In this document: positions 8,205 through 27,006 of the stretch, piece after piece
Position numbering within the stretch: the first letter of the stretch is position 1
Layout of the letters: each line of letters begins with the position of its first letter
Origin: an archaeon
GTDB taxonomy: Archaea; Nanobdellota; Nanobdellia; Woesearchaeales; GW2011-AR15
Length of the DNA stretch: 43,066 nucleotides
Direction: 5' to 3'
NCBI GenBank assembly: GCA_018657065.1
Contig: JABHXU010000017.1
Coordinates: 1-43,066, forward strand
Notes under the pieces: model-generated
Told to the model about the DNA's origin: nothing
Databases searched by the model: none
What the model saw: only the letters and a program-made list of their open reading frames with translations
Translations under genes and position numbers: made by a program

Positions 8205-8222
8205 AATTAACACCAATTAAGT

Positions 8223-8246
8223 AAGATTGAATTTAATCTTATAAAC
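8223..8246 (-). promoter_or_regulatory. EncFtn promoter with overlapping inverted repeat
   Basis: On the minus strand a TATA element (GTTTATAAG, about 8239-8246) is followed at once by AAGATT-AAATTC-AATCTT, a perfect 6-base inverted repeat with a 6-base spacer (8223-8240), then the GGTG ribosome site. The palindrome covers the space between TATA and the expected transcription start, where an archaeal repressor would block initiation. It does not match the DtxR/MDR1 consensus. Confidence 0.4.
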
Positions 8247-8307
8247 TTTTACTTTCTAGTTTTAATCCAAATTTTTTTGAGTTGTCTATGAGAGGATATT
8301 AGGAAAA

Positions 8308-8317
8308 TTATATAAAC
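8308..8317 (+). promoter_or_regulatory. TATA box for the 950-residue surface protein gene
   Basis: TTATATAAAC lies about 47 bases before the GTG start at 8359. GGTGA at 8350-8354 is a good ribosome site 4-5 bases from that GTG, so this transcript has a short leader of about 20 bases. Confidence 0.5.
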
Positions 8318-8358
8318 TCTTAATCTTCTTTAATAACATAAAAAAAGCTGGTGAAACT

Positions 8359-11211: not shown

Positions 11212-11726
11212 GGAAAAAAATTCACACTTCTAAACGCGCACAAGTTTCATCACAAGTTTTTACTTATATGATGGCTGCAATTATAATTGCAGCTATTGTA
11301 TTTGTAGGATTTAATGGTATAGCTAAAATTTTGAAAACATTTCAAGGAGCACCACTCGAAAAATTCGAGTCAGATCTAAGAAAACAAATTTCTTCAACAT
11401 CAACAAGTTATATGTCTGTAGAATTATTTGAATTTACTTTACCAAGCAAATATGACGAAATATGTTTTATCGATTCTTTAAATGTGGGTTCAATTGAATC
11501 TAGTGTAGCAGAAAACTCAGTCATAAAAAACAAAATTCAAAGTAAAGTAGAAGAAAATATCTTTTTGATTCAAGATGGAGATGTTCTTGAAGCATATTAT
11601 ATTGAAGATGTTGATGTTTTAGATGATTATGTATGTGTAGAAAATCAAGGTCGTTTAGGTATCTGGTTTCAAGGAACAGGAAAACATGCATGTTTAAAAT
11701 TAACTCAAAATGAAGCATGTGAGTAA
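11208..11726 (+). CDS. pilin-like protein
   Basis: 172 residues. SKRAQVSSQVF precedes a hydrophobic helix (about residues 18-40), the class III-like signal layout. The exported part is mostly beta-type, with Cys residues near the middle and in the C-terminal CLKLTQNEACE. The start overlaps the stop of the 950-residue gene (ATGA), indicating translational coupling. No further function can be read. It is probably a subunit of the same envelope structure. Confidence 0.6.
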   Translation: MRKKIHTSKRAQVSSQVFTYMMAAIIIAAIVFVGFNGIAKILKTFQGAPLEKFESDLRKQISSTSTSYMSVELFEFTLPSKYDEICFIDSLNVGSIESSVAENSVIKNKIQSKVEENIFLIQDGDVLEAYYIEDVDVLDDYVCVENQGRLGIWFQGTGKHACLKLTQNEACE

Positions 11727-11754
11727 ATATTTTTTAAAAATTATATTTTGAAGA

Positions 11755-11826
11755 ATGAGAAGTAGAAAAGCACAAGTACAATTTAACTGGATGAACTGGT
11801 TACGCTCGGTTCACACGCAAAATTAA
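11755..11826 (+). other. 23-codon leader ORF or vestigial duplicate of a family A start
   Basis: The ORF runs ATG to TAA and encodes MRSRKAQVQFNW followed by MNWLRSVHTQN. Its first half is nearly the same, in DNA and protein, as the start of the real family A gene at 11868 (MKSKKAQVEVQFNWIY), with a six-base deletion. After TGGAT the similarity ends and hairpin-forming DNA begins. An A/T-rich TATA-like element (about 11726-11737) is placed so that transcription would start near this ATG. It could be a broken tandem copy of the family A gene, or a leader peptide translated just before two hairpins and the downstream gene. Confidence 0.5.
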
Positions 11827-11853
11827 GGACTATTTCACAAAGTTCAATAGTCC
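11792..11853 (+). repeat. two adjacent hairpins between vestigial and real family A starts
   Basis: Hairpin 1 (11792-11813) has TGAAC/GTTCA arms extended by G-U pairs to eight base pairs around a six-base loop. Hairpin 2 (11827-11853) has perfect GGACTATT/AATAGTCC arms and an 11-base loop. Between them is CACACGCAAAATT, which resembles sequence in the hairpin sites at 35470 and 36801. The unit is less AT-biased than its surroundings and looks inserted. It could act as an RNA leader for the downstream A-B-C cassette. Confidence 0.45.
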
Positions 11854-11867
11854 GAAAAAGTATAAAA

Positions 11868-12875
11868 ATGAAGAGTAAAAAAGCACAAGTAGAAGTACAA
11901 TTTAACTGGATTTATGTAAGTATTGCAGGAGCAGTTATTCTTTCAATATTTGTAGGAATTGCTTTAAAGATGAATCAAAATTCTAAAGAACAATTAGCTT
12001 CTGAAGCAATAACTTATTTTGATGAGATATTTACAAGTGTACAAGCATCTGAAAATACAGAAAATGAAATATCGCTTCCTGGACTAGATCTTGAAATTGA
12101 ATCAGATAATCCAATATGTAATCATTATTCAATTGAGGGAACAGATCGTAGTCAAATATCAATTAGATTTCTACCGTTTTTTAGTCCTAGAATTATTAAA
12201 ACCAGAATATTATCATATGCACTAGGTTGGGATATGCCTTTTAGAGTTAGTTATTTTATTTACATGACTAGTCCAGGTGTTGCTTATGTTTCAGTAGGCA
12301 ATAATGCTATTCGAGATGAGCTTCCTGAGCATTTAACAGTATTAGAAGTTAATGATGCTAGTGATTTAGAGAATGAGAATTATGATAGAATAAGATTTTT
12401 TACTTCAGAAGATCCAAGTTCATTTAATGTAGACGACACTGTTGAGAAAAATAAATTTGTTTCAGTAATTAAGATTAATCAAGAAGCTAATGAAATCACT
12501 TATTATAAATTAAAATCTGGAGAATTTGAAGAACAAGATACAACATATTATTTAGATGATACTACATTACTTGCTGCAATTTATGCAGATAATGTTGATT
12601 CTTATAATTGTAATATGGCTAAAGCAATTGAGAGATTACATAGGTTTAGTACAATGCTAAAAAATAGAGCAAGTGAACTTAGAGGAGCTGATTTATTGTC
12701 TTTATGTTCTCCTGATGCATATAGTCAAGCAGAATCAATGTTAACACAAATGGAAGAAGCAACAGAGTCAACTAAAATGGATGCAAGTATGGTGTCCCAA
12801 TTAAAAACAATACGAGAACAATTATCAGTTTTAAATAAAGATCTAAATAAAAGATCTTGTCCAACAGTTTATTAA
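11868..12875 (+). CDS. pilin-like protein, cassette family A (plus-strand copy)
   Basis: 335 residues. SKKAQVEVQFNWIYV leads into a hydrophobic helix and a large exported domain. It is a paralogue of the 351-residue protein at 3218-4273, sharing the QFNWIY start, NYDRIRFF, the YYLDD-x-x-LLAAIYAD segment, a Cys-x-M motif and a C-terminal SCPTVY. The last third (about 235-330) is helical with a Cys in LLSLCSPDA. It is the first gene of the plus-strand A-B-C cassette and is followed one base later by family B. The exact role is unknown. Confidence 0.65.
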   Translation: MKSKKAQVEVQFNWIYVSIAGAVILSIFVGIALKMNQNSKEQLASEAITYFDEIFTSVQASENTENEISLPGLDLEIESDNPICNHYSIEGTDRSQISIRFLPFFSPRIIKTRILSYALGWDMPFRVSYFIYMTSPGVAYVSVGNNAIRDELPEHLTVLEVNDASDLENENYDRIRFFTSEDPSSFNVDDTVEKNKFVSVIKINQEANEITYYKLKSGEFEEQDTTYYLDDTTLLAAIYADNVDSYNCNMAKAIERLHRFSTMLKNRASELRGADLLSLCSPDAYSQAESMLTQMEEATESTKMDASMVSQLKTIREQLSVLNKDLNKRSCPTVY

Positions 12876-12876
12876 A

Positions 12877-13380
12877 ATGAAAATCCTAAAATCGAGAAAA
12901 GCACAGTTACAATTAATGGAAAATACCTTTGTACTACTTATACTTTTCATAGTTTTTATGATTGTGTTTTTAGTTATACTTGTAATGAACAAAGCTCAAT
13001 CACAAAATAGGTTGGCAGAAATCCAAGAAATTGAACTAATAAAAAAATCTCAAGTTTTGAATTTTTTACCAGAAATGCAATGTTCAGACAATAATAATCT
13101 AGATCCAGATTGTTATGATTTAATTAAAATCCAAAAATTTAAAGATTATGCTGTTACAGATACAGAATATTATCACAGTATGTTAGGATATATACGAATT
13201 GAAATTGAGCAATTTGATCCTAGCCCAGATGTTACAACTCCACCTGAAAAATGGGAAGTTTACGATTTTAAACCTGAAAAAGAAGCAGGTGAAAAAGCTA
13301 TCCAGTTTCCAGTATTATTACGAGATGTTGTAGATAATAGTGATTACTTTGGTATAATATATTTAAAAATTTACAAATAA
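12877..13380 (+). CDS. pilin-like protein, cassette family B (plus-strand copy)
   Basis: 167 residues. SRKAQLQLMENTF precedes a strongly hydrophobic helix (about residues 17-40). The exported part has KKSQVLNFLPEMQCS and DPDCYDLI, matching the 163-residue family B protein at 2725-3216. It starts one base after the family A stop and ends two bases before family C, so the three proteins are probably made in matched amounts. There is no enzymatic motif. Confidence 0.65.
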   Translation: MKILKSRKAQLQLMENTFVLLILFIVFMIVFLVILVMNKAQSQNRLAEIQEIELIKKSQVLNFLPEMQCSDNNNLDPDCYDLIKIQKFKDYAVTDTEYYHSMLGYIRIEIEQFDPSPDVTTPPEKWEVYDFKPEKEAGEKAIQFPVLLRDVVDNSDYFGIIYLKIYK

Positions 13381-13382
13381 AA

Positions 13383-13880
13383 ATGACAAGAAATAAAAAA
13401 GGTCAAACAGAGATAATAGGTTTAGTAATTATTGTAATAATAATAGTTATTGCTGGATCCTTTTTTTTTATTAGAGCTTTAAGACCTAGAGAATCTCATC
13501 AATCAAAATACGAAAATCCAAAGTTAGCTCAAAGTTTTTTAAATACATTAATGAATACAAAAACAGAAAAAAACGTTATTGTGTCAGATATTATTAAAGA
13601 TTGTTATAGTCCGGCAAAGAATGATTTGTGTGGTTCTTCAACAACTAGTGATTGTTGTAATTATGCATATGCAACAATATCTAATGCACTTGACCATACT
13701 TTAGGTACTTGGCAAAAAGAATATAGGTTAATAGTTAGAAAACAAGGTTATGCTGATAAAATTGAAGATTTATTTTCAAGTGAAAAATGTCATAAAGGTG
13801 CTCCTCAAGGTCAACCAGGATTTTATTATATTCCACCTTCACCACCAATTGTAGTAACTTTGATGATTTGTGATGTTTAA
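13383..13880 (+). CDS. pilin-like protein, cassette family C (plus-strand copy)
   Basis: 165 residues. NKKGQTEIIGLVIIV starts a hydrophobic helix of the class III-like type. The exported part holds QSFLNTLMNT, IIKDCYS, a CCNYAYATI segment and LGTWQKEYRL, with a C-terminal MICDV; all have counterparts in the protein at 2268-2741. It is the last gene of the plus-strand A-B-C cassette. A new TATA box follows before the next gene, so the cassette may be a sub-operon. Confidence 0.65.
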   Translation: MTRNKKGQTEIIGLVIIVIIIVIAGSFFFIRALRPRESHQSKYENPKLAQSFLNTLMNTKTEKNVIVSDIIKDCYSPAKNDLCGSSTTSDCCNYAYATISNALDHTLGTWQKEYRLIVRKQGYADKIEDLFSSEKCHKGAPQGQPGFYYIPPSPPIVVTLMICDV

Positions 13881-13892
13881 ATTAATCGTAAG

Positions 13893-13902
13893 TTTTATAT
13901 AG
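13893..13902 (+). promoter_or_regulatory. TATA box before the tandem small pilin-like genes
   Basis: TTTTATATAG lies about 29 bases before the ATG at 13927. This matches a leaderless or nearly leaderless transcript and marks an internal promoter within the surface gene run. Confidence 0.5.
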
Positions 13903-13926
13903 CAAAAATCCAAATATATTATTAAA

Positions 13927-14202
13927 ATGGAAAAAAAAGCCCAATCCTTATCTATTAATACTATTGTTGTAGCAGCAATTGCACTATTTGTAATGGTCTT
14001 ATTAATTGTTGTTGTTGTTGGAAATATGTCAAAATTTAGAAAAAACGCTGATGCTTGTGGAGCTAATGGTGGAAGATGTATGGACGATGATGATGTTGAA
14101 GAAAAATGTAGTGGAACTTATGATCGAACACGTAGGGAATATAATTGTTATGATTTTCGCGGTGAAATTGAAGAAGGAAAAGTATGTTGTGTGAGCACAT
14201 GA
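13927..14202 (+). CDS. small Cys-rich pilin-like protein (tandem copy 1)
   Basis: 91 residues. EKKAQSLSINTIV and a hydrophobic helix (about 14-31) are followed by a short exported domain with six Cys (CGANGGRC, EKCSG, YNCYDF and CCVST). It is paralogous to the next gene: the DNA for SINTIV-x-AAIAL is almost identical in the two. The small size and high share of Cys suggest a compact disulfide-bonded subunit. The stop overlaps the next start (ATGA). Confidence 0.65.
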   Translation: MEKKAQSLSINTIVVAAIALFVMVLLIVVVVGNMSKFRKNADACGANGGRCMDDDDVEEKCSGTYDRTRREYNCYDFRGEIEEGKVCCVST

Positions 14203-14495
14203 AAATAAAAAATATTATTTCAAGAAAAGGACAGTCATTATCTATTAATACTATTGTTATAGCAGCAATTGCACTAATTATTCTAGTTGTTTTAATCGCG
14301 ATTTTTGGTGGACAAATTAGGAAATTTCTTTTTGGTGCGAGTTCTTGTAGTGGAGAATGTACTGAAAGAGTAGAATGTGATATTGGTTATAATACAGTTT
14401 TATCTGGTACAAATTGCGATGATAAAAACACAGAAGGAATGGATAGACAGTATGAATATGTATGCTGTATTCCTTTAATAGATAGGATAACCTAG
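14199..14495 (+). CDS. small Cys-rich pilin-like protein (tandem copy 2)
   Basis: 98 residues from the ATG at 14199, which overlaps the preceding stop as ATGA; a start at 14184 is possible but less likely. SRKGQSLSINTIVI and the hydrophobic helix repeat those of the preceding gene. The exported part has CSGECTERVEC, then GTNCDDK and YVCCIPL, so the Cys pattern is similar but not the same. The pair arose by tandem duplication and then diverged outside the membrane segment. Confidence 0.65.
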   Translation: MKIKNIISRKGQSLSINTIVIAAIALIILVVLIAIFGGQIRKFLFGASSCSGECTERVECDIGYNTVLSGTNCDDKNTEGMDRQYEYVCCIPLIDRIT

Positions 14496-14502
14496 CGAAA
14501 AA

Positions 14503-14511
14503 CATATAAAG
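14503..14511 (+). promoter_or_regulatory. TATA box for the 36-residue membrane microprotein
   Basis: CATATAAAG is centred about 27 bases before the ATG at 14534, placing transcription start on or beside that ATG. This supports the tiny ORF being expressed. Confidence 0.45.
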
Positions 14512-14533
14512 AATTTTGACAAATATTCTATAT

Positions 14534-14644
14534 ATGGCAGATTCTGTGATAAATGATAATTTATTAGTACTAATAATGATGTTACTTTTAGTTATAGTAA
14601 TGGTATCATTTTTCATATATAATATCAAGCCAGTTTTACCATGA
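14534..14644 (+). CDS. 36-residue single-pass membrane microprotein
   Basis: The ORF is ATG to TGA: MADSVINDN, then a continuous hydrophobic segment (LLVLIMMLLLVIVMVSFF), then IYNIKPVLP. Three things support it as a gene: the TATA box at leaderless distance, the ATGA overlap of its stop with the next start at 14641, and the otherwise gene-free gap it fills. It lacks the K-x-Q motif of its neighbours. It may be a small membrane partner of the apparatus; no homologue is recognised. Confidence 0.6.
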   Translation: MADSVINDNLLVLIMMLLLVIVMVSFFIYNIKPVLP

Positions 14645-15531
14645 AAAAAGGGGTCATAGCAGTCAGCACAACAATTGGATTAATTCTACTTGTAGTTTCA
14701 CTTTTAGCATTACTAAATTTTGTAATTAGTGGTTATGATAGAGTTGATTCAAGTTATAGTAATGAATTATGTAAAGCAAGTGTTATAGCAAACTCAAAAC
14801 TTAACACACCTTTATTTGGTGAAGGTGCTTGGCCAATTCAGTGTCCAACAGTATACTATTTTTTTGGTTATGAGGGTTTTTTTATTGAATCTGGTGATGT
14901 TAAACAAGAATTTTCATATGACACTAATACAAGAACATTAAAACCAGAAAATAAAGAATTTGTTAAATGTATGAAGGATGACGCAATTAAAGATGGTGAA
15001 TTTTTAGAAAAAACAGATGTATGTAAAATTCGAAATATGAATTTTTTGATGGCACAAGCACATGCACAATGTTGGGAACAGTTTGGAAGGGGTCAACTTT
15101 CTATGTTTGATAGGCTTGATACTGAAAGACAATGTGTTGTATGCGCAGTCTATGATTTTTCAGATGAAGTACAAAAGAAATTTGGATCATATTATGTGGA
15201 AGACGTCGTTGAAGAAGAACATAGTTTTGACTATATGATGCGAACAAATGGACCACTTGGTAGAGATATTACTTATGCTGAATTAGCAAATGACCCTCTT
15301 GATCCCTATGAACCACCATATTACACTTATAGCTTTGATGAATCTTATGCATCACTATTTATTGCAAATAATGAAGACTATTTTGGACAAATAGTTGGAC
15401 AAATTGAAGAAGTTATAGGAAGTTTAGTAAAAATAAATGTTGGTGAAGAATCAAGATACTTCCTTAATACAAATGAATTTATTCCTGAAGCAGGAGTAGT
15501 TAGAGAGTGTGATTTGCTTGTTGAACAATAA
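14641..15531 (+). CDS. membrane-anchored exported protein of the pilin-like cluster
   Basis: 296 residues. MKKGVIAVSTTIG leads into a hydrophobic helix (about 10-30), similar to pilin-like starts but without the Gln. The exported domain contains paired Cys (CKASVI, IQCPTVYYFF, CWEQFG, ERQCVVCAV) and acidic/aromatic stretches; the C-terminus is beta-rich with VRECDLL. No recognised domain. It is flanked by membrane microprotein genes that overlap both of its ends, implying tight co-translation and possibly a complex. Confidence 0.6.
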   Translation: MKKGVIAVSTTIGLILLVVSLLALLNFVISGYDRVDSSYSNELCKASVIANSKLNTPLFGEGAWPIQCPTVYYFFGYEGFFIESGDVKQEFSYDTNTRTLKPENKEFVKCMKDDAIKDGEFLEKTDVCKIRNMNFLMAQAHAQCWEQFGRGQLSMFDRLDTERQCVVCAVYDFSDEVQKKFGSYYVEDVVEEEHSFDYMMRTNGPLGRDITYAELANDPLDPYEPPYYTYSFDESYASLFIANNEDYFGQIVGQIEEVIGSLVKINVGEESRYFLNTNEFIPEAGVVRECDLLVEQ

Positions 15532-15655
15532 AGGACTTGAATTTGATATGATGGGATGGGTTATACTTGGATTAGTTGCACTGGTTGTAATAATTGGTCT
15601 AATAATAATTTTCATGAACTCTTCATTTAATATAATTAATTTATTACCGTTTTAA
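15509..15655 (+). CDS. 48-residue pilin-like membrane microprotein
   Basis: The ORF starts in another frame inside the end of the preceding gene. From the GTG at 15509 it reads MICLLNNKGLEFDMMGW, then a hydrophobic run to about residue 35, then a short polar tail. KGLEFD before the helix matches the archaeal class III signal consensus (K-G-x-x-x-E/F), which argues for a start upstream of the ATG at 15548; TTG at 15518 or 15521 is also possible. It stops five bases before the 1019-residue gene. The mature product would be little more than one membrane helix, as in archaeal pilin-like microproteins. Confidence 0.6.
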   Translation: MICLLNNKGLEFDMMGWVILGLVALVVIIGLIIIFMNSSFNIINLLPF

Positions 15656-15659
15656 GAAA

Positions 15660-18600
15660 ATGCCAATGGATAATGCTGTAAAAGCAATACTTGTAATCTT
15701 AACTATAGTTGCAACTATAGGAATGTTTGCGTCTTTAACAAGCCCAGCAGTTCGTGTTTTAATGGGATTTGCTGATGAGAGTACACTGGATGATAATTCT
15801 AAGGATGAATACATTTATTCTAGACAAATGAATGAGGAAACAATTAATTCAATTAATGCTCTTTTGTTTTCAATTAATTCTATTGCGCATTATGATACAA
15901 ATCTGAAAACACAAACAGAAAAAGATGCTTTTACAGATGAAATGTTTAGTGTAGAACAAGAAAGAAAATTTGGTGCAACAACTGTTAGATATACTTTATC
16001 GAATATTGAAACAGTTTTTATTGAAGATCTTAATTCAGATGAAGGAAGAGAGACCCTAATAGACGCACTTATTAGATGCCATTACATGTTTGAAGATAAT
16101 GGGAAGAAAAAAACAAGATGTTTTGGAATTGAGTCAAAAGCTGCAAGTTTGAATTTTGGAGAGCTAAAATCTTTTGCTACAAATTTTAGAGAAACAAATA
16201 GTTGTAATGAAAATTGTAAAGAAACAATTGATACTTTATTTAATCCATTAGCATTAGCAAGCGATAAGCAAGTTGTTGAGATTGATGGATCAATAGGAAA
16301 CAATTTTGTTATTTGCGCGGAACCTAGTGCAGGGGATATTTCTCATGTTTGGACAGATAGAGTTTATTTATCTCCGAGTTTGTCACATCATTCTTGTGAT
16401 GTGGAAAGAGAAGCAAGAAACGATGATGTTTTAGGAATGAAAATCGAAGACTTTTACTTAAAGCAAGATGTTGGTCCTATTTCAACTCTTGAAAAATTTG
16501 TAAAAGGATATAAACCTAATATTTTGTATTATCAAATGGCAGATCCTGTAATTGCACAAGATTTTGAAGCAGCCATTTTTACATTTGATGTTTGGGATGT
16601 TATCAAATGGGAATTAATAGGAAGTGCATTATTTGATTTTATACCTGCAATGAAACCAGTTAGAAAATTCGCAGGAGCATGGTTAAAGTCTACAGGAAAA
16701 GAGATTGTACAAAGAGCAGTAAAAGAGGGTGCAGAGGCAACAGCTGAAGAAATAGGACAACAGTGGTTTAAAGAACTGTTCCAAGAAGTTGGGGAAAAAT
16801 TAAGTAATGCTAAAGGAATAGGTGGTGTATATAATGCACTTAAGAGTGTTATTGAAAGAGTTCAAAATGTTGTTCAAGGAATAAAAAATATACCTTCTTC
16901 TGCAATAAATAAAGCAGTTACGGGATTACTTGGAGAAACAGGAGAAACAGCAACAGATAGGGCTATTAGAGTTATGACAGTGAAAAAAGAAATTAGAAGA
17001 TCTTTGAAATTAGAAAATATGTTTCAAGGAGAGTTTGTAGACCAATATCTTAAAGCAGCAGGAAGATCCACATCGGAACTTCAAGAAGAGTTTGTTGAAA
17101 AACTATCAAAGGAAAGTTTTGACAGAATGGCAAAGGGGCAAAGTGGAGAAATTACAGAACAAGAATTTCAAGAAGCCTTTGAAGATGTATTTGGACAATA
17201 TAAAGATGAGATGGGAGAGTTTTATGAATATTATTTAAAAAATCCTCGTATTGTAACGGAGAAATATAATAAAGAGTTCATTGAGAGATTTTCTGGAGAT
17301 TTAGGAGCCCAGATGCTTAAAGAGATTAGGATTAATTCTAGAATTTGGTCAAAGTTTGAACTAAGACTTAACAGAATATTCAATACAGGAATTGGTCCTG
17401 AAGAACAATTAAAAATAGTTCGAGAACTAATGGAAGAAAGTCCGGACGAAGTTTTTGGAGAGATGTTAAGCAGTAGAAATGATATGAGAAGATTTCTGTC
17501 TAGTTTTAGTTTAGATCTTGATGCATTTACTAAAATCCCTGGTCCTGAAGGAAAAATGTTGTTGGGAGCAGGAGATATTGATACATTTATTTCAAAAGTT
17601 GATGAATTTCCACTTTCTGCTAAATATGGGGCAGCTCTTGAAACACATATGAAAGATTTAGGAATTAAAGAAATTGTGGGTAATCCTCTAAAGAAAAAAA
17701 GACACATACTTATACTTGGTTTATGGTTCTTAAGTGCAAAAGAAGTTAGTGATGAAGAAATATTTCATCCAATAGGAATTAATTCTTTTGGATATAAAAC
17801 CTCTATTAGTACTCCTGCGATTTTTGATGACTACTTGAGAAAAGACTGGGATTATAATAAAGAAAAGAAAAAAAAGGATGAAGATAACAAATATCATGAT
17901 TACTTCTTACATTATGGAGACAGTGTGATTCCAGGAGTTAATGATAAAAAAGAAGAAGAGGAAGAGGAAGAACCTAGTTATGAAGAACAAGTTTATGTAA
18001 CAGAAAAATATACAGGAACTATTCCAGCACTTAGAAATTACTTTGTTGCCTTAATTAAAGACCAAAGAAGATTCTGGTTTGATCAACCTCCAGATAGATT
18101 TTATTTAGTTGCACCATGTAAAGCAGATGTTAATGTTCAATTAACTCAAATTGAATGTTGGGGAAAACCTCAAGAAGCTAAAAAACCAACAAATTTGATT
18201 TCAAGTTTATTTGCTAAAGAAGCAAAATATGCTACAGGAACATTTAATCCATTACTTGATAAAAGAGAAGAGCATTTTGATGGAAAAAACCAAATGTTAT
18301 ATCAAGTTGATGAAAATAAAGACATAATTAAATTATGTGATAAAAAAAATCTTTGGGAAGGAATAACTTTTGATGATCCTTATACACCAATGACTATTAC
18401 TGTTGATCCTGTACTTGATAGATCTCTTGAAATGAACTATTGTTATGAAGGAATTGATGAACAAATGATGGTTGCAAATGTGTTATTAAATTATGCAATT
18501 CCAATTGCCGGTGGTTTAATTGGTGGAGCTGCTTGTGGTGGTGTTCCAATATGTTTATTTGCCTCAGGAGCAATAAGTGGAGCAATTGGTGGAACTGCTT

Positions 18601-18719
18601 ATATGGCACTTGAAACAGGTGCAGTTGATAAAGTTCCAGGTCTTTCAACATTTATGAACACAATGGGTATTCAGACAGCAGGTTATCATTGGCCATATCA
18701 TAGTTCAAGAGGTCACTAA
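15660..18719 (+). CDS. 1019-residue membrane protein of unknown function, core of the surface gene run
   Basis: Unrecognised. It has an N-terminal hydrophobic helix (about 8-30); an exported-looking first part with Cys pairs (CHYMFEDNGKKKTRC, CNENC); a long, mostly helical middle rich in Glu, Lys and Gln (about 330-680); a short hydrophobic segment ILILGLWFLS near residue 682; an acidic Glu run (about 763); and a C-terminal Gly/Ala-rich hydrophobic hairpin (about 939-985: PIAGGLIGGAACGG, then GAISGAIGGTAY). The Gly-rich end resembles glycine-zipper membrane inserts. It is the longest gene here and sits centrally, so it may be a scaffold or channel-forming part. Confidence 0.6.
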   Translation: MPMDNAVKAILVILTIVATIGMFASLTSPAVRVLMGFADESTLDDNSKDEYIYSRQMNEETINSINALLFSINSIAHYDTNLKTQTEKDAFTDEMFSVEQERKFGATTVRYTLSNIETVFIEDLNSDEGRETLIDALIRCHYMFEDNGKKKTRCFGIESKAASLNFGELKSFATNFRETNSCNENCKETIDTLFNPLALASDKQVVEIDGSIGNNFVICAEPSAGDISHVWTDRVYLSPSLSHHSCDVEREARNDDVLGMKIEDFYLKQDVGPISTLEKFVKGYKPNILYYQMADPVIAQDFEAAIFTFDVWDVIKWELIGSALFDFIPAMKPVRKFAGAWLKSTGKEIVQRAVKEGAEATAEEIGQQWFKELFQEVGEKLSNAKGIGGVYNALKSVIERVQNVVQGIKNIPSSAINKAVTGLLGETGETATDRAIRVMTVKKEIRRSLKLENMFQGEFVDQYLKAAGRSTSELQEEFVEKLSKESFDRMAKGQSGEITEQEFQEAFEDVFGQYKDEMGEFYEYYLKNPRIVTEKYNKEFIERFSGDLGAQMLKEIRINSRIWSKFELRLNRIFNTGIGPEEQLKIVRELMEESPDEVFGEMLSSRNDMRRFLSSFSLDLDAFTKIPGPEGKMLLGAGDIDTFISKVDEFPLSAKYGAALETHMKDLGIKEIVGNPLKKKRHILILGLWFLSAKEVSDEEIFHPIGINSFGYKTSISTPAIFDDYLRKDWDYNKEKKKKDEDNKYHDYFLHYGDSVIPGVNDKKEEEEEEEPSYEEQVYVTEKYTGTIPALRNYFVALIKDQRRFWFDQPPDRFYLVAPCKADVNVQLTQIECWGKPQEAKKPTNLISSLFAKEAKYATGTFNPLLDKREEHFDGKNQMLYQVDENKDIIKLCDKKNLWEGITFDDPYTPMTITVDPVLDRSLEMNYCYEGIDEQMMVANVLLNYAIPIAGGLIGGAACGGVPICLFASGAISGAIGGTAYMALETGAVDKVPGLSTFMNTMGIQTAGYHWPYHSSRGH

Positions 18720-18720
18720 A

Positions 18721-19404
18721 ATGAAAAAAAAACTATTAATAACAATTATTGCAGTTCTTGTAGTTTTACTTTTGATTTTTTCAGGATATGTTGTTTATCA
18801 AAAAATTAAACCTCGAGAAATAAAACATGATTATTATACGATTGAACCTGAACCTTGGGTAGAAGATACTCCTTTTACAGATGAAGAAAATGATGTGAAA
18901 ATTAGTGTATCTAGAGCAACCAGATCTAAGAGTAAATTTGATATTGATAAACAAGAGATTTATGATAAAGGTTTAAAGACTTTATTTAGTAATGGACTTT
19001 ACAAAGGAATGCCACTAGGAATTGCTAAAGCAATATTAAATGAATCAACAGAATTAATTATTGGTCCTGAAATGGATCCAGATGATGGGGTTGTTGAAGC
19101 ATTTATTCTTGGAAAGTATGAGGAGGATGAATTTGCATTTTACATTTTCTTAGATGAAGATTGGAAAAAACAAATACCAGATACTAATATTTTATATGCA
19201 AATGATTTAGATGAATCTACAGTTAGAAAGTATGATTTTACATCATATACAAAAGGTATTTACATTGATAAAGTGAAAGGTGATTTTGACTGGTTTTTAT
19301 CAAGTCCTAGAAAGGGAGGAGTATTTGTTGGTGAAATTAATAAAGAAACACTTGATATTGAAGATTTACGGTTAACAAATTTAACTATAATATATGTAAG
19401 GTGA
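18721..19404 (+). CDS. membrane-anchored exported protein, unknown function
   Basis: 227 residues. MKKKLLITIIAVLVVLLLI is a plain signal-anchor; no pilin motif. The exported domain has EPEPWVEDTPFTDEE and a compact fold with alternating strands, and no Cys. It starts one base after the stop of the 1019-residue gene and runs into the GGTGA ribosome site of the next gene. No family recognised. Confidence 0.55.
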   Translation: MKKKLLITIIAVLVVLLLIFSGYVVYQKIKPREIKHDYYTIEPEPWVEDTPFTDEENDVKISVSRATRSKSKFDIDKQEIYDKGLKTLFSNGLYKGMPLGIAKAILNESTELIIGPEMDPDDGVVEAFILGKYEEDEFAFYIFLDEDWKKQIPDTNILYANDLDESTVRKYDFTSYTKGIYIDKVKGDFDWFLSSPRKGGVFVGEINKETLDIEDLRLTNLTIIYVR

Positions 19405-19409
19405 AATTA

Positions 19410-19709
19410 ATGAGATCAAAAAAAGCAATGGAAATGGAAGTGATTGTAAAGGCAATTTTAGCATTATTAATATTGGCAGTCCTTGCTGGACTAATATATA
19501 TTTTTGTTGTTCAAAGGGGTGCAGGCGGAGCAGGAGTTATTGTAGATGAAACAGCAGAAACAGGTGACGGAGTTCTTTCAGATTTTATGAACTTAATAGG
19601 TAGAAAATGTGATGAAGATGCAGATCCTAGATGTGGAATGACAGGAAAACAAAGAATTTGCGAAGAAGGAAAGTGGGTAACAACAGATGATCCGTGCGAA
19701 GAAAGCTGA
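19410..19709 (+). CDS. small pilin-like protein with Cys-containing tail
   Basis: 99 residues from the ATG at 19410, chosen because GGTGA lies six bases upstream; a GTG at 19401 inside that site is less likely. RSKKAMEMEVIVKAIL leads into a hydrophobic helix, Gly-rich GAGGAGV, and a C-terminal domain with four Cys (RKCDEDADPRCG, RICEEGKWV, DPCEES). The last pattern is like small C-x-n-G-K/C-x-x-G-x-W motifs in surface proteins. It overlaps the next gene by 23 bases. Confidence 0.6.
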   Translation: MRSKKAMEMEVIVKAILALLILAVLAGLIYIFVVQRGAGGAGVIVDETAETGDGVLSDFMNLIGRKCDEDADPRCGMTGKQRICEEGKWVTTDDPCEES

Positions 19710-20154
19710 GTTAATTACTGCAAGAGTATTAGTTGAAATTATAATTTTTGTAGTTGTTTTTGTAATAATAATAAAAGGAAGTGCAACACTATGGAAATTA
19801 TATGTTACTAAACCTCAAACAGTTACAGAAAACTCTTTTGTTTTACTTCATAAACATATAAAATATTTTGATGCTGAGACATCTGATACTTTTCCACTTC
19901 AAGTAGATAATAAACATATAATTAAAGGATATGATAAAGAAGATCCTAGTAAGCCAGATTTATGTGAAGAGGGATCTTGTTTGTGCATAAATTTAGCTAA
20001 TGGTAATGTTCTTAGATGTAAGCAAATAGAAAGTAGTATTAATGAAGACATTAGATTAAGTTCAAGTTTTGAAATAAATCCAAGTGAGGATGTACAAAAC
20101 TTCTATTTGGAGAAAGATTCTAAAACAAGTCAAATAAGTATTCACAATGGATAA
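19687..20154 (+). CDS. pilin-like protein
   Basis: 155 residues. RAKKAELITARVLVE precedes a hydrophobic helix (about 16-30). The exported part has KHIKYFDAETSDTFPLQV, a Cys cluster (CEEGSCLC, then RC) and a beta-type C-terminus. The YFD-acidic motif recurs in the proteins at 20625 and 21163, suggesting one subfamily. It overlaps both neighbours by a few bases, so it is translationally coupled. Confidence 0.6.
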   Translation: MIRAKKAELITARVLVEIIIFVVVFVIIIKGSATLWKLYVTKPQTVTENSFVLLHKHIKYFDAETSDTFPLQVDNKHIIKGYDKEDPSKPDLCEEGSCLCINLANGNVLRCKQIESSINEDIRLSSSFEINPSEDVQNFYLEKDSKTSQISIHNG

Positions 20155-20623
20155 AAAAGGGGAGATTGAACTACCATTAATTTGGTTAATAGACTTAATT
20201 TTAATAGTCATTCTTATTTTTTTTGTCTTTGATCCAGCACTAGATAGGCAAGCAGAAAATGTACAATTCTATAAACGTTTTTCAGCTAAAAATTTAGCAC
20301 TTTATATTGATGCAGTTTATACAGCACCTTATCCTTTGAAGGTATATTACAATGAAAATACTCCAACATTTACCTATGTTTTTGAAGAAGATACAGTATA
20401 TGTTTTGGAAGAAACTGAAAAACTGAGAAATAGTGTGAGTTATAAATTTATTCCAGATCAAAATAAAAATTTTAGAGATAGAACAATTGAACCAAACAAT
20501 AAAATTGAAATATCAGATTTAGAAAGTGGAAAAATCATATCAAATATACCTATTGCTTTTATTTCAACTAATAATAGAATATACCCAATTTCAGTAGTTA
20601 AAACTTCAGATATAATAAAATAA
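20147..20623 (+). CDS. pilin-like protein
   Basis: 158 residues. MDKKGEIELPLIWLI starts a hydrophobic helix ending near residue 29. The exported domain has AKNLALYIDAVYTAPYPLKV and alternating beta segments; there is no Cys. The ATG overlaps the previous stop by eight bases, and the stop is one base before the next gene. No enzymatic motif is visible. It is likely a structural subunit related to its neighbours. Confidence 0.6.
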   Translation: MDKKGEIELPLIWLIDLILIVILIFFVFDPALDRQAENVQFYKRFSAKNLALYIDAVYTAPYPLKVYYNENTPTFTYVFEEDTVYVLEETEKLRNSVSYKFIPDQNKNFRDRTIEPNNKIEISDLESGKIISNIPIAFISTNNRIYPISVVKTSDIIK

Positions 20624-20624
20624 A

Positions 20625-21170
20625 ATGAACAAAAAACAAAAATCAAAAGTATTTAAATTTCGAAAAATAAGGCTTTCGAAAAAAAGCCAAGCATATAATA
20701 TTTTAGAATATTATTTAGTTAGAATTCCTTTTATTTTAGTTCTTGTAGCTCTTTTTGTATATATGGCCTCATCAATTGAATCAAATGCATTAAAATCACA
20801 TGATGTTAGAAAAGAAATAATCCAAAACAGAATTTTTTATTCACCTAATTCAATTACTTATTTTGATGAAGATTCTGGAAGAATTTATCCACATATTATT
20901 GATATGGAGAGATTTAATGAAATTCAACTTGATCAAGCATTTTTTACAAAAGAAAATAAAGTATTAACTGGAAAAATAGATCTTACAAATATTGATCTAA
21001 ACATAACAAATACATCGTATATTAATAGAGATCAATACGAACGATGGAAACACTATACAAAATTTAGTCAATTTGATAATTTTATTGAAAAAAAAGTAGT
21101 CTTAATTTTGCATGAAGGAATAATATATAGAGGAGCAATAAAACTTAATTTTGTGATACCTAATGAATAA
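20625..21170 (+). CDS. pilin-like protein with extended basic N-terminus
   Basis: 181 residues. A basic stretch of about 20 residues precedes SKKSQAYNILEYYLV and a hydrophobic helix (about 32-50). The exported part contains NSITYFDEDSGRIYPHII, the YFD motif shared with 19687 and 21163, and a C-terminal strand HEGIIYRGAIKLNFV. The stop overlaps the next start as ATGAATAA. The long basic leader would place the processing site unusually far in, if it is processed at all. Confidence 0.6.
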   Translation: MNKKQKSKVFKFRKIRLSKKSQAYNILEYYLVRIPFILVLVALFVYMASSIESNALKSHDVRKEIIQNRIFYSPNSITYFDEDSGRIYPHIIDMERFNEIQLDQAFFTKENKVLTGKIDLTNIDLNITNTSYINRDQYERWKHYTKFSQFDNFIEKKVVLILHEGIIYRGAIKLNFVIPNE

Positions 21171-21609
21171 GAGAATGAAAAAAAGAGGACAAGTAATTAG
21201 CTTTTATGATATTATGGGACTTCTTATTTTTGCTCTTGTAATGTTATTTTGGATAATGGTGTTATCTCCTCCAAAAAGACAAGCTGTTGAAATTAGAGAA
21301 CAAATTCATTATTTTGATGATGAAGACATGTTGATGGCAATTTTAAAAACACCAATAGGTGAGAACACAGTTCTAGATCATATTTTTTTAGAAGATTATG
21401 AAACAGTTAATAGAATGATTAATGAATCTTTGTATCCAGTATTTGGCCCAGCATGTTTTGAACTTATTGTTAATGGTGCAAAGTTTACAGAATTGCATTG
21501 TAAAAAAATACTCACTGAAGAATTATTAAAATCTGAGATTTACGTTCCAAAAGATAAAGAGGGATCTATACTAATTAAGTTAAATGTCCCAGGTTACACA
21601 AATGAATAA
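21163..21609 (+). CDS. pilin-like protein
   Basis: 148 residues. KKRGQVISFYDIMGLL begins a hydrophobic helix (about 15-32). The exported part has QIHYFDDEDMLMAILKTP, reminiscent of the QSFLNTLMNT segment of cassette family C, then FGPACFELIV and a second Cys (LHCKK). The resemblance suggests these families share an ancestor. It overlaps both the previous gene and the peptidase gene by ATGAATAA. Confidence 0.6.
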   Translation: MNKRMKKRGQVISFYDIMGLLIFALVMLFWIMVLSPPKRQAVEIREQIHYFDDEDMLMAILKTPIGENTVLDHIFLEDYETVNRMINESLYPVFGPACFELIVNGAKFTELHCKKILTEELLKSEIYVPKDKEGSILIKLNVPGYTNE

Positions 21610-22777
21610 AATGAAATTATTAAAAAAACAATTTCAAATATTTTATTTAAAAAAAAAATTAAATAAAAAAGCTAAAATATTTTTAATTGGAGTTAGTGTT
21701 ATTTTTGTAACCTATGTTATGTTTAGATTATATTTAACTTCTCAAAATAAAGTAAATAAATTTGAAGCACTTGTTGGTGAAGAGCAATTAAAAATTATTG
21801 AAACATATAAACGAGGAGAAAAGTTTTTATTTTTTTTAGATCTTTCTGCTCAAAAAGCATTTTATGAGTTTACAACAGGACTTATTGATGGAACCTCACT
21901 AAATTGTGAACAAAAAACTACTGAAGGATATCCAGTAATAAATAGTAATTGTAATATTAAAGAGCAAACAGAAAATAATTTTAATAAAATTATTAATGAA
22001 TATTTAAAAACCTTTTATGAAGAGGTTCCAGATCTTACTTATTCACTGTTTTTTTTTGAAGAATCTATTGTTGCTAAATCAGTTCCACTTAGAATTGGTG
22101 TAACTGGTGAAGATAGTTATAATTTCGAATTAGAAGAAATAATTTATGAAGAAACAGAAGAAAAACAAGAACCAACAACTCCAACTCAACCCTCGAATCC
22201 AGAGCAACCAACACAGCCAACTCAGCCAACTCAACCGTATAAAAGTGAGGGAAAATGTGGATTTATGGCAGATTATGCAAAACAATATGTAGGATGTCCA
22301 TATTCACTTACTGAAGTTTATATTCTTCCACCAAATGGATGTTGGAGAGGTGGGTTAACATGTGCAACTTTTGTTGGATCAGTTATTGTTTACACATTGG
22401 GATGGAATCATTATCCGTATGGTCATGGTAGAGAAAAATGTTCAAATAGTGCAGTTTATCAGTTAGGAAGAGACCCAAATATTTTGCAACCAGGTGATAT
22501 TTTTGCAACTGAATATTTAAAAAGAGATGGTGGTTATACTGCATGGGGGCATACAGGAATGTATGTAGGAAAAGGGAGATTAATAGCAGAGTCTTATGGA
22601 GGACCATTTTGTTATAGGCAATATATTCCAGATAATAATGGTGAACATATTTTTATTCATTCATATGGTTGGCAAAACATGGGACCACCTGGAGTTTGTT
22701 ATGATTCCTTTAATAATTTATTTATTAACAGTAGATTAATATTAACTAATTTTTGTAGACCAAAGGTGTGTGCATAA
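21602..22777 (+). CDS. membrane-anchored NlpC/P60-like cysteine peptidase
   Basis: 391 residues from the ATG at 21602, which overlaps the previous stop as in the gene before; an ATG at 21584 is less likely. Layout: basic leader, membrane helix (~22-42), an exported pilin-like domain, a Pro/Thr/Gln linker (~195-215), then a C-terminal catalytic domain. The NlpC/P60 pattern is visible: GGLTCATFVGSVI with Cys254, and WGHTGMYVGKGRLIAES with His317. Such enzymes cut peptide bonds in bacterial peptidoglycan stems. Archaea lack murein, so the substrate is probably outside the cell or another linkage. The next gene carries a transglycosylase domain, strengthening the cell-wall link. Confidence 0.7.
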   Translation: MNKMKLLKKQFQIFYLKKKLNKKAKIFLIGVSVIFVTYVMFRLYLTSQNKVNKFEALVGEEQLKIIETYKRGEKFLFFLDLSAQKAFYEFTTGLIDGTSLNCEQKTTEGYPVINSNCNIKEQTENNFNKIINEYLKTFYEEVPDLTYSLFFFEESIVAKSVPLRIGVTGEDSYNFELEEIIYEETEEKQEPTTPTQPSNPEQPTQPTQPTQPYKSEGKCGFMADYAKQYVGCPYSLTEVYILPPNGCWRGGLTCATFVGSVIVYTLGWNHYPYGHGREKCSNSAVYQLGRDPNILQPGDIFATEYLKRDGGYTAWGHTGMYVGKGRLIAESYGGPFCYRQYIPDNNGEHIFIHSYGWQNMGPPGVCYDSFNNLFINSRLILTNFCRPKVCA

Positions 22778-25509
22778 TGAAAAAAATAGGGATAATAATT
22801 TTGACATTAATTTTAATTAATAATGTGTATGCATATGATGTTTTAATTCAAACTAGTGAAATTGACGAGTTAGAAGTTTTATCAATTCATCCAATAACTA
22901 ATAATTTTTTTTATTCAACTTACTATGATGAATTTAGTGAAGAAACAAAATACTTGTTTAAGTTTGTTAATGATAATGATGTTTTAGAAATAAAGCCAAA
23001 TAATAAAATATACACTATAATTGAATCAGATGTTTTGACAGAATTTGAAACATTTCAAATTGTAAAAGAAGGAGAAGTTTTATCCGAACACAACCTTAAT
23101 TTTTGCAATAATAATGGTAAATGTGAGCCCTGTCAAGGTAGTTATTGTGTGCATCAAGAAAATGAAATTAGTTGTTCTGATTGTAAACAAAGTGGTAAGG
23201 ACAATTATTGTAATATATTAGATGATGAAATATGTGATTTAGATTGCACACCTTATGAATATGAAGAAGAAAATGAATATGAAACTTGTTATGAAGAATT
23301 GCTTTTTAGGGATAGTTGTTCAGATTATTTAGGAAAAACCTGTCAAGAAGATCAAATATGTAATGGAACACAAATTATTTTAGAAGGTAATAATGAATTA
23401 TGTTGTTTAGGAAAATGTGAGCAATCACAAGATATAGATATTTTTTCAAAATCATGTTCTGATTTTTTTTGGGAAGAATGTGGGACAAATGAAGTTTGTG
23501 AAGGTAATGAAATTTTTCTCCAACACGCAGATCAAACATGTTGTACAACTCAATGTATAGAAGGAGGAATTGATGATCCTAATCTTAATTTAGAGCCAAT
23601 AAAGAAGGATTACACAAGTATGGTTATTACACTTTTTTTAATTTTTATGATCTTAGTTTTAATTTGGATTATTATTGATAAAAAAATAATTAAAATAACT
23701 TTTTTGATATTTTTATTTGCAACAGGAGCAATATTTTTTTTATCAAGTAAGTCAGATAATCAAATAACTGCAAATGTTGTTTCTCAACAAGAACAAGCAA
23801 AAATGATTTGTGATGCTGCAGAAGCATATAATATTCCAGATTCATATTTACTTGCAATTGCGTATAAAGAAAGTCGTGTAAATCATTTTGATAAAAATGG
23901 AAATGCAAAAATTGCTGGAGATTGTGGAGTTGGTATAACTCAGCAGCAATTTACACCAATAGCAAATTGTGATCAACTTAGAAATGGTAAAGTTAATTTT
24001 ATTTGTGGTACAAGCAAAATTGATGGTAGACAATTGGATGCAACTAAACTTCGAGATAATATTGAATGTGGAGCAATTGAATTAATTAATAAATGCAATT
24101 ATTTAAGTTGTATTGGAAATCAAAAACAATATTATTGCGCAAATTCTGAGATTAATATCCCTCCTAAAAATGTTATGTATAATGATTGGGATATAGCTAT
24201 AAGAGCATATAATGGGTGGGGATGTGGTTCAAATTATTATAGAAATTCAATGGGAGTAAATAGTCCAGAATATTTAGATTTGTCATTTAGAATCCAAAGT
24301 TATGTTGAAAATTTTAGAGAAGTTGAAAAACAATTTCAAGGGTATTGTGATGGTGTGGATCCTAGTGAATATAATCAATTAGAACAACCCAGTATAGAGC
24401 ATAAAAGACCCTCAGCAGCTAAAGAAATAGATATTCCTGAAGAATTGCTCGAAGGAGAACAAATTGGATATTATTATTTAAACCCTTCAACTAAAATAAA
24501 AACAAATATTGATTTATCTAGTATTTCTAAAGAGCTTGCTTACGGAAATGATCTAGTAACATATGTTAGTAATTGTAAAGAGAGTGGAAGTAGTTATTCT
24601 ACATGTGTTCAAAATAAATTAAATGCAGATAGTAAAACAGGTACTTGGACCTTACTTAATATTGATACGAGCGGAGTTGGATCATTTAGTCTTAATACTG
24701 GATTTACTTATACTGATGACCTATTGCAAGAAAAACCTTTCATTATCAAATTTGGATTAAATTTGAACAAAGCAAGAGCAAGACAAATAAGCTCTTTTGA
24801 GTATGATGAAGAAGTAGGAGATGCTCCAGAAATTATTAAAACAAAAGAAAGCGAAGAGAATGAAGAATCACAAGAGGAGATCACACCTTCAGAAGAATTA
24901 GAAACTTGTTCAACTGATCCAATAACTGTTGTTTTATTTGGAGATAGTATAACTCAAGGACATTATGATTATGGAAATTATTTACAAGATTATTTTAATG
25001 AAAATTTTAATCAAGAAGTAAATGTTAAAATAATAACAGGTTTAGGAGGATTAAGAGTTGATAATGAAAAGTCTAAAGAAGAATTTAATAACCAGATTTT
25101 ACCATTGAAACCAGATTTTGTGTTAATGTGGTTTGGAATGAATAGTTTAGAAGATAATCCTAATATTCACCAAATAACATATCAAGAGATGATTGAGGAG
25201 ATGTTAAGCAAAGAGATCACACCAATTCTTTTAACAACTTCTCCAACATGTTCAGCGTTTACTAGTAGAGATTTTTCATATCTTCAAAACATTGTGCAAA
25301 TAGATAAGAATTTGGCAAATCATTATGATGGAGTCTATTTAATTGATGTGAGAGAAGAATTGAATAAGGTTATTGGGTCCAATTGTGCAAATTATTTTTC
25401 AGATGGATATCATATTAATCCTGAAGGTCATAATCAATTTGCAAATATAGTTGTTAATCAATTTACTGAATGGAAAAACAATAATGAAGGACCTTTTAGT
25501 TGCCAATAA
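22777..25509 (+). CDS. lytic transglycosylase-like and SGNH esterase fusion, membrane-anchored
   Basis: 910 residues from the ATG at 22777, overlapping the preceding stop as TAATG. Layout: signal peptide (~1-20); Cys-rich segment with two similar repeats (CSDYLGKTCQEDQIC and CSDFFWEECGTNEVC, each ending CC-x-x-x-C); two membrane helices (~282-324); a transglycosylase/lysozyme-like domain with LLAIAYKESRVN (Glu365 the likely acid), CGVGITQQQF and DIAIRAYNGWG; a linker region; and a C-terminal SGNH domain with FGDSITQG (Ser724), GLGG, FGMNSLED and DGYHINPEGH (Asp876, His879). Cleaving glycan strands and removing acyl groups would be complementary steps on peptidoglycan. Activity is inferred from motifs only. 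Confidence 0.75.
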   Translation: MKKIGIIILTLILINNVYAYDVLIQTSEIDELEVLSIHPITNNFFYSTYYDEFSEETKYLFKFVNDNDVLEIKPNNKIYTIIESDVLTEFETFQIVKEGEVLSEHNLNFCNNNGKCEPCQGSYCVHQENEISCSDCKQSGKDNYCNILDDEICDLDCTPYEYEEENEYETCYEELLFRDSCSDYLGKTCQEDQICNGTQIILEGNNELCCLGKCEQSQDIDIFSKSCSDFFWEECGTNEVCEGNEIFLQHADQTCCTTQCIEGGIDDPNLNLEPIKKDYTSMVITLFLIFMILVLIWIIIDKKIIKITFLIFLFATGAIFFLSSKSDNQITANVVSQQEQAKMICDAAEAYNIPDSYLLAIAYKESRVNHFDKNGNAKIAGDCGVGITQQQFTPIANCDQLRNGKVNFICGTSKIDGRQLDATKLRDNIECGAIELINKCNYLSCIGNQKQYYCANSEINIPPKNVMYNDWDIAIRAYNGWGCGSNYYRNSMGVNSPEYLDLSFRIQSYVENFREVEKQFQGYCDGVDPSEYNQLEQPSIEHKRPSAAKEIDIPEELLEGEQIGYYYLNPSTKIKTNIDLSSISKELAYGNDLVTYVSNCKESGSSYSTCVQNKLNADSKTGTWTLLNIDTSGVGSFSLNTGFTYTDDLLQEKPFIIKFGLNLNKARARQISSFEYDEEVGDAPEIIKTKESEENEESQEEITPSEELETCSTDPITVVLFGDSITQGHYDYGNYLQDYFNENFNQEVNVKIITGLGGLRVDNEKSKEEFNNQILPLKPDFVLMWFGMNSLEDNPNIHQITYQEMIEEMLSKEITPILLTTSPTCSAFTSRDFSYLQNIVQIDKNLANHYDGVYLIDVREELNKVIGSNCANYFSDGYHINPEGHNQFANIVVNQFTEWKNNNEGPFSCQ

Positions 25510-25563: not shown

Positions 25564-27006
25564 ATGATAAAAATACCTAAAGACTTAATAATTTCTAAAA
25601 TTAAAGAAAAAACTAATCTAAGTGATGCAGAATTACAAACAAAAGTTAAAGATAAATTAGATCAACTTTCTGGTCTTATTAGTGAAGAAGGAGCACTTCA
25701 TATTATTGCTAATGAATTAGGAGTAAAAATTCTAGAAGATCCAGGAAAACTTCAAGTTAAAAATGTTTTAGCTGGAATGAGAAATGTACAAATAACAGCC
25801 AAAGTTGTAAAGATATACGAAGTTAGAGAATTTAATAAAGATAATAGAAAAGGAAAAGTTGGAAATTTTTTAATTGGAGATCAAACAGGTGTTATGAGAG
25901 TAGTTGCTTGGAATGATAAAGCAGATTTACTGTCAAAACTAAGTGAACAAGATACAATAAAAATTGAGAACGGATATGCAAGAGATAATAGAGGAAAAAC
26001 AGAAATTCATTTAGGAGATAAAACTGTTATTGATATTAATCCAAGTGGAGCAGAAAAAATTGAAGTTAAATCAATAAGTGAATCTGAAAGAAAATCTATT
26101 AAAGAATTAGGAGAAAGTGAGCAATCTGTAGAAATTTTAGGGACAATTGTTCAAGTTTTTGATCCTAGATTTTTCACTGTAGATCCTGAATCAGGAAAGA
26201 GAGCAGTTGAACGAGAAGGTAAATATTATTTAGGAGATCAAGAGATTTCAGCTATTGATTATTCATATGTAACTAACATATTTTTAGATGATGGTACCGA
26301 GAATATTAGAGTTGTTCTTTGGAAAAATCAAACTCAAAATTTATTTAATATGAGTCATGAAGATATCTTAAGTAAACAGTCAACAGGGTTTGAAGAAATT
26401 AAAAATGAGTTATTAGGAAATATTGTGAAATTAAAAGGTCGAACAAATAAAAATGAAATGTTTGACAGAATTGAATTTATTGCTCAGTTTGTTGATATTA
26501 AACCTGATCCTGATGAAGAGATTTCTAGATTAAATAAAAAACTTGAAGAAGAACCAGCAGCAAGTTCTACACCAGTAGAACCTAAACCAGTCAAAGAAGT
26601 AGTTCAAGAAGTCAAACCAGTTCAAGACAAAGCTGTTGAAACTATTGCTAGTGAAGGAATTAAAGTTCAAACTGCAGGATTTTCTCAAGAAAAAATAGAT
26701 GTTGAAGAAACACCTCTTGTTCAAGAATCTGAAAAAGTAGTAGCAGATGAACCTATTTTTGAATCTTCTGAAGTAGTTCAAGAAGTTGAGGAAGTGAAAG
26801 AAACAACATCTGAGGAAATCTTAACTAATGAAGAAATTCCAAAAACAAGTACTTCTGATGATGATTCAAAGCTTGAAAAAGTCACTGACAAAAAAGAAGA
26901 AGTTGTTCCTATTGATTTAGATGCAGCTAGTCCTAGTGAAAAACCAAGTGAAGAAATAGAAGAAATTGATGATATTGAGGAATTAACAGATATTGAGAGT
27001 ATTTAA
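25564..27006 (+). CDS. rpa: archaeal replication protein A-like OB-fold ssDNA-binding protein
   Basis: 480 residues. An N-terminal helical segment (LSDAELQTKVKDKLDQ, then EEGALHIIANELGV) matches the start of archaeal RPA large subunits. An OB fold follows at about 70-165 (NVQITAKVVKIYEVREF, GNFLIGDQTGVMRVVAWND) and a second at about 180-320 (VEILGTIVQVFDPRFF, TNIFLDDGTENIRVVLW). The second has no visible zinc-finger Cys. The last ~150 residues form a low-complexity Glu/Val/Pro/Thr tail that probably binds partners. RPA coats single-stranded DNA in replication and repair; radA lies nearby. A hairpin directly follows the stop. Confidence 0.8.
   Translation: MIKIPKDLIISKIKEKTNLSDAELQTKVKDKLDQLSGLISEEGALHIIANELGVKILEDPGKLQVKNVLAGMRNVQITAKVVKIYEVREFNKDNRKGKVGNFLIGDQTGVMRVVAWNDKADLLSKLSEQDTIKIENGYARDNRGKTEIHLGDKTVIDINPSGAEKIEVKSISESERKSIKELGESEQSVEILGTIVQVFDPRFFTVDPESGKRAVEREGKYYLGDQEISAIDYSYVTNIFLDDGTENIRVVLWKNQTQNLFNMSHEDILSKQSTGFEEIKNELLGNIVKLKGRTNKNEMFDRIEFIAQFVDIKPDPDEEISRLNKKLEEEPAASSTPVEPKPVKEVVQEVKPVQDKAVETIASEGIKVQTAGFSQEKIDVEETPLVQESEKVVADEPIFESSEVVQEVEEVKETTSEEILTNEEIPKTSTSDDDSKLEKVTDKKEEVVPIDLDAASPSEKPSEEIEEIDDIEELTDIESI

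Follow-up and report, generated by a model that had tools for sequence, protein, structure and literature searches.

The protein P0001 is probably a membrane-anchored, extracellular woesearchaeal enzyme that acts on bacterial peptidoglycan, a gene fusion lodged in a slot where wall hydrolases are swapped between species. It is encoded in the window analysed here, a stretch of 43,066 nucleotides (contig JABHXU010000017.1, positions 1 to 43,066, of assembly GCA_018657065.1). The gene (22777..25509, + strand) specifies a composite surface protein of 910 residues. As judged from the open reading frame, its translation, Pfam and relatives, a signal peptide, a Cys-rich module and a hairpin anchor are followed by an SLT domain, a spacer domain and an SGNH domain. 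Our reading draws on the computed domain identities, the topology prediction, the fusion, synteny, the diversity of hydrolases in the slot and the lack of a detectable Mur ligase.

The GH23/SLT lytic transglycosylase (LT)-type domain occupies residues 335–522 (23779..24342, +) and was delimited by Pfam, alignments, profile and fold searches. It contains E365-S366, G386-I-T-Q389 (G-x-x-Q) and AYNGWG (477–482), with Glu365 (codon 23869..23871, +) as the predicted catalytic acid. Glu365-Ser366 (9/9), the motif Gly and Tyr-Asn-Gly were invariant in an alignment of nine woesearchaeal relatives; Glu-Ser (16/16), the motif Gly and Tyr-Asn were still invariant among sixteen sequences. A profile of the nine relatives matched E. 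coli MltC (5e-7) and Slt70 (1.5e-4) in the PDB and, more weakly, g-type lysozyme and MltE. In the profile alignment Glu365 fell on the ES motif of MltC. The profile matches and the conservation across relatives rule out chance motif matching. An AlphaFold2 model of the domain, made from a shallow alignment, reached a pLDDT of 62 and a pTM of 0.64. The best PDB matches of this model in Foldseek (probability up to 1.00, best E 4e-3) were GH23 chitinase, MltC, MltE, MltF, Slt and g-type (goose) lysozyme. A lysozyme-like fold is therefore supported, by a model of moderate quality. The genome contains a single SLT domain of this kind.

The SGNH/GDSL hydrolase domain (residues 709–902; 24901..25482, +) was identified by Pfam, homologue alignment and PDB matches. 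GDSL_2 (PF13472) matched with E=5.7e-18 and 66.5 bits (cut-off 32.9), and Ser724, Asn789, Asp876 and His879 were kept invariant in four homologues. At the sequence level the SGNH identity is clear. The nearest solved structures are generic GDSL acylhydrolases; none among the closest is named PatB, OatA or Ape1. Among 242 genomes, this SGNH type was seen in G000, G005 and G007, with one further weak match, and so appears almost confined to the P0001 family.

A first-pass annotation of the window had proposed that Glu365 and the YNGWG segment mark a lysozyme-like transglycosylase, and that Ser724 with Asp876/His879 forms an SGNH set. The residue numbers were right (E365 in AYKESR, YNGWG at 478–482, S724 in FGDSITQG, D876/H879 in DGYH). 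The first assignment is borne out by the MltC and Slt70 profile matches, the GH23 fold matches and the place of Glu365 in the catalytic column; the second by the GDSL_2 match and the invariant residues. The fold comparison of the SLT region, set beforehand as a possible refutation, found GH23 folds.

Hydropathy indicated a signal peptide and two transmembrane (TM) segments in P0001, in agreement with the two-helix anchor proposed earlier. The predicted signal peptide covers residues 1–19 (22777..22833, +; hydropathy and sequence). The TM segments (19-residue windows starting at 277–298 and 302–307) form a hairpin at residues 277–325 (23605..23751, +) with a cytosolic KK loop between them, and both flanks are predicted to lie outside. 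With this topology, the Cys-rich N-terminal region and the enzyme domains at the C-terminal end would both face the outside of the cell. The Cys-rich module (residues 20–262; 22834..23562, +) is shared with standalone Cys-TM proteins of relatives, as detected with a home-made hidden Markov model (HMM) and BLAST; a PDB search returned no relative of it. A conserved spacer ('Link', GYYYLNPS) domain at residues 548–665 (24418..24771, +), also defined by a home-made HMM, recurs in most woesearchaeal slot proteins. NCBIfam gave no match for P0001 or its neighbours, except TSP3-repeat families on 8359-11211. As a separate observation, many of these proteins (in L032, L034, L038, L039 and L048) have a short xITG[YHN][AV]-type motif immediately after their membrane helix or signal segment (ITGYAA, ITGYVP, ITGHAV, ITGNAT); P0001 has ITANVV (23752-23775). 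It is possibly a processing or sorting signal.

How the protein was assembled can be read from its relatives. Homologues of the same family, found in the same slot, keep the Cys module, the anchor and the spacer, and the enzyme part varies: SLT+GH25 in G002, 3D+SGNH+a second SLT-like domain in G007, 3D in G003, 3D+GH25+NAGPA in G001 and M23+NlpC/P60+SLT-like in G005; domains were called SLT-like from home-made HMMs and motifs. In four other genomes (L048, L049, L086 and L115), a Cys-TM protein and an LT-spacer protein are encoded by separate, adjacent and co-oriented genes; at the family loci L033, L035, L036 and L040 no LT gene follows the Cys protein, which is a standalone protein. On these comparisons the most plausible origin of P0001 is the fusion of a Cys-TM gene with an LT-spacer gene, its second TM helix being the signal segment of the former downstream gene, which accounts for the two-helix hairpin. 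The first-pass annotation had found the domain combination unfamiliar; the apparent fusion explains why. P0001 is also one variant in a conserved slot of exchanged wall hydrolases. Given the separate adjacent genes in relatives, we dropped the idea of a novel domain order in its own right. Searches against phages gave one weak match, to the SGNH part only, and searches against plasmids gave none; neither traced the fusion to a phage or a plasmid.

The substrate was approached through the host. It is a woesearchaeote (DPANN) of the same genus as Archaeon GW2011_AR15 (G002; CP010425.1); the other relatives are Candidatus Woesearchaeota. Its genome, 1.49 Mb in size and 95.65% complete, gave no Mur ligase match; the search was positive in 12 of 14 control genomes. 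We therefore rejected host-made peptidoglycan as the substrate, and bacterial peptidoglycan is the likely one. Contamination of the metagenome-assembled genome by a bacterial contig was also rejected, as archaeal genes flank the locus and its synteny is woesearchaeal.

The P0001 gene lies between a prepilin-like cluster (11208-21609) and an RPA (OB-fold) gene (25564..27006, +) that, by synteny, bounds the slot on its downstream side throughout Woesearchaeota. With RPA as the anchor, a survey covered 80 named woesearchaeal loci, 65 of them with at least 2.5 kb upstream; 57 of these 65 carried a PseN-type N-terminal anchor domain as in the window gene at 21584. Pfam recognized 17 families in 79 slot proteins: SLT (19), VanY (7), M15 (7), M23 (6), Amidase_2 (5), NlpC/P60 (2) and Phage_lysozyme2 (2), as well as M74, VgrG3_C, DUF2272, 3D and SLT variants. 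Apart from fn3 and TPM, nearly all of the families are peptidoglycan-active. SLT exceeded its cut-off in 86 of 234 genomes of the wider class. Two side observations concern these loci. A contig labelled Candidatus Aminicenantes bacterium (L109) carries a woesearchaeal RPA/PseN locus and is probably mis-binned. A separate woesearchaeal locus encodes a polytopic membrane protein that carries an SLT domain at its C terminus (L041:6699-9053, L046:4388-6634, L047:5579-7951), next to three lipoprotein-like genes and an RFC gene.

The P0001 reading frame is intact, and its ATG overlaps the stop codon of the upstream gene (21584..22777, +) by one base, so the two are probably translated together. The upstream product combines a PseN anchor (residues 30–175), with homologues throughout the order, and a C40/NlpC-P60-like part (residues 222–394) detected by profile. 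Against a bona fide woesearchaeal NlpC, hhalign gave 95%; the best PDB match was a C40 peptidase (E 0.0012), and the match to Pfam NlpC/P60 was weak (0.1). By these comparisons the product is a candidate C40/NlpC-P60-like peptidase.

Further upstream, the cluster at 11208..21609 (+) encodes two larger membrane proteins and a series of small single-TM, prepilin-like proteins whose N termini are of the K[GAS]Q type, as seen from relatives and hydropathy; it is conserved around the slot in relatives. A strict rule for class III (prepilin) signal peptides, K[GASK][QE] plus a hydrophobic stretch, selected 12 window genes, all within 2268-21609, and no other gene of the window. The genome also encodes ATPases and platform proteins of type IV pili, together with a prepilin peptidase, and the cluster may serve as a pilus or pseudopilus. 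Several other features of this region were noted. Paralogous triads of prepilin-like proteins (≈ 350, 165 and 160 residues) lie on opposite strands at 2268-4273 (−) and 11868-13880 (+), flanking proteins of 777 and 950 residues; both match one triad in L037. The 950-residue protein (8359-11211) is a TSP3-repeat surface protein with a C-terminal helix and weak similarity to the Amuc_1099 pilus-like family. At L037:3943-9753, the position that gene 4367-6700 has in the window is taken by a pair of consecutive prepilin-like genes; both products end in an SGNH domain, and the pair lies upstream of the homologue of the 950-residue protein. In G005, SGNH domains are likewise found on two prepilin-like proteins, encoded at the cluster's far end. 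A second SGNH-like protein of the window (283-1305; single TM) has a weak GDSL_2 match (1.2e-4).

Catalysis and substrate, as well as deployment against living bacterial partners or prey and a link to a pilus, are inferred from these data, as follows. In the SLT domain of P0001, Glu365 would act alone as acid/base in cutting MurNAc-GlcNAc bonds. Ester groups, plausibly the O-acetyl groups that otherwise block such enzymes, would be stripped by the SGNH domain, and the putative C40/NlpC-P60-like peptidase of the upstream gene would cut stem peptides. P0001 itself probably arose when a Cys-TM gene fused with the adjacent LT-spacer gene, with capture of the SGNH domain within the family. The terminal slot of the prepilin-like surface locus exchanges wall hydrolases between species, as would be expected of a device that must cope with different bacterial walls.

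Several points weigh against this reading. The match of P0001 to Pfam PF01464 (SLT) is below threshold (E=0.052; 13.6 bits versus a cut-off of 21.3), and a search of the wider class at that cut-off did not recover its genome; the close relatives L042, L044 and L046 pass it. The structural model of the SLT domain is only of moderate confidence and its top fold match is a GH23 chitinase. The SGNH substrate cannot be read from the sequence, and catalytic activity of P0001 is a prediction. The HMMs used in the survey derive from the same set of proteins; the Pfam counts are independent of them. The predicted structure of the upstream PseN protein matched neither a pilin nor NlpC in the PDB. Finally, the T2SSE and T2SSF genes lie outside the slot cluster, on contigs C2 and C13 (the ATPase also on C9), and in the complete genome of the relative G002 the platform genes are ≈ 160–300 kb from the slot.

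P0001 and the slot of varied wall hydrolases together suggest equipment for dealing with bacteria, and the archaeon likely attacks living bacteria or attaches to them. A wider proposal, which we put forward tentatively, is that Woesearchaeota use a conserved, pilin-like surface machine, its outermost proteins carrying exchangeable peptidoglycan cutters (GH23, GH25, M15, M23, M74, NlpC/P60, amidase and, in P0001, GH23+SGNH) to contact bacteria and breach or remodel the partner's wall, in episymbiosis or predation. Alternatively, the archaeon might be a scavenger that gains amino acids and amino sugars by digesting dead bacteria or peptidoglycan debris and leaves live cells alone. DPANN genomes are metabolically limited, an anchored set of several enzymes also suits digestion, and for Pacearchaeota it has been proposed that amino acids come from the peptidoglycan of dead cells (PMC11537232). 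However, the hydrolases belong to a prepilin-like surface cluster and their class varies between close relatives, which fits changing targets better. This is not decisive, and we consider scavenging unlikely. Another target of the GH23 domain, for example chitin or a glycan of an archaeal surface, with the SGNH domain deacetylating that target, is improbable: the best fold match is indeed a Ralstonia GH23 chitinase and SGNH families act on many polysaccharides, but in sequence the domain best matches two bacterial lytic transglycosylases, MltC and Slt70, and in relatives the slot holds NlpC/P60, M15/VanY, M23, Amidase_2 and M74, which have no role on chitin. Loss of catalysis, leaving a domain that only binds peptidoglycan for attachment as suggested for woesearchaeal LT proteins generally, could explain the divergence of the SLT domain below the Pfam cut-off and the reading GITQ for GLMQ, but is highly improbable: in 16 homologues the catalytic Glu and Ser, the Gly of the motif and the Tyr-Asn in AYN are invariant, which binding alone would not require.

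The DPANN archaea in cultivation have archaeal hosts. With an order-wide locus showing almost every class of peptidoglycan hydrolase, in cells apparently without peptidoglycan synthesis, it becomes directly testable whether some DPANN archaea live on bacteria or attack them: the hydrolase repertoire of the fixed slot is readable in any genome, and its domains can be expressed and then assayed on the walls of candidate partners. The protein that joins SGNH and transglycosylase domains is a specific test case because O-acetylation blocks lytic transglycosylases. The wider locus is of more interest than P0001 alone. GH23 proteins in Woesearchaeota have already been published; the SLT-SGNH protein and the exchangeable slot are apparently new, as we found no published description of an SLT-SGNH protein in DPANN or of a hydrolase-swapping slot beside RPA in a literature search of incomplete coverage.

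P0001 resembles the GH23 enzymes MltC, Slt70 and MltE (PF01464) in fold class, in the catalytic Glu of an ES motif and in the G-x-x-Q and AYN motifs; MltC and MltE are likewise membrane-anchored. Unlike them it is archaeal, fused to SGNH, anchored by a hairpin, Cys-rich, divergent and below the Pfam cut-off. In Gram-negative bacteria, Ape1 esterases and lytic transglycosylases are separate proteins. Their pairing is similar in idea, since de-O-acetylation opens the way for the transglycosylase, but the SGNH domain of P0001 has no specific sequence match to the named Ape, PatB or OatA structures. Lytic transglycosylases are also encoded with envelope-spanning apparatus in the case of VirB1-type enzymes of secretion and pilus machines and of MltE in the assembly of type VI secretion systems; those open the producer's own wall, whereas the P0001 host has no detectable Mur ligase. 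Similar in setting are the murein-like LT proteins (fam00969) of Pacearchaeota and Woesearchaeota, for which Castelle et al. 2021 (PMC8204110) proposed bacterial hosts, and the GH23 enzymes of the predatory Woesearchaeota proposed by Vigneron et al. (PMC9723730). These share with P0001 the archaeal groups, the enzyme class, the extracellular location and the proposed bacterial wall target. In both reports the LT domain is part of large proteins, and the text of PMC8204110 mentions neither pilin nor pilus. Strock et al. 2025 (PMC12352652) demonstrated for Halogranum salarium that archaeal peptidoglycan hydrolases kill bacteria. There, as proposed here, archaea without murein aim peptidoglycan hydrolases at bacteria; the Halogranum enzyme is a secreted toxin, whereas P0001 is membrane-anchored, belongs to a prepilin-like locus and combines GH23 with SGNH.

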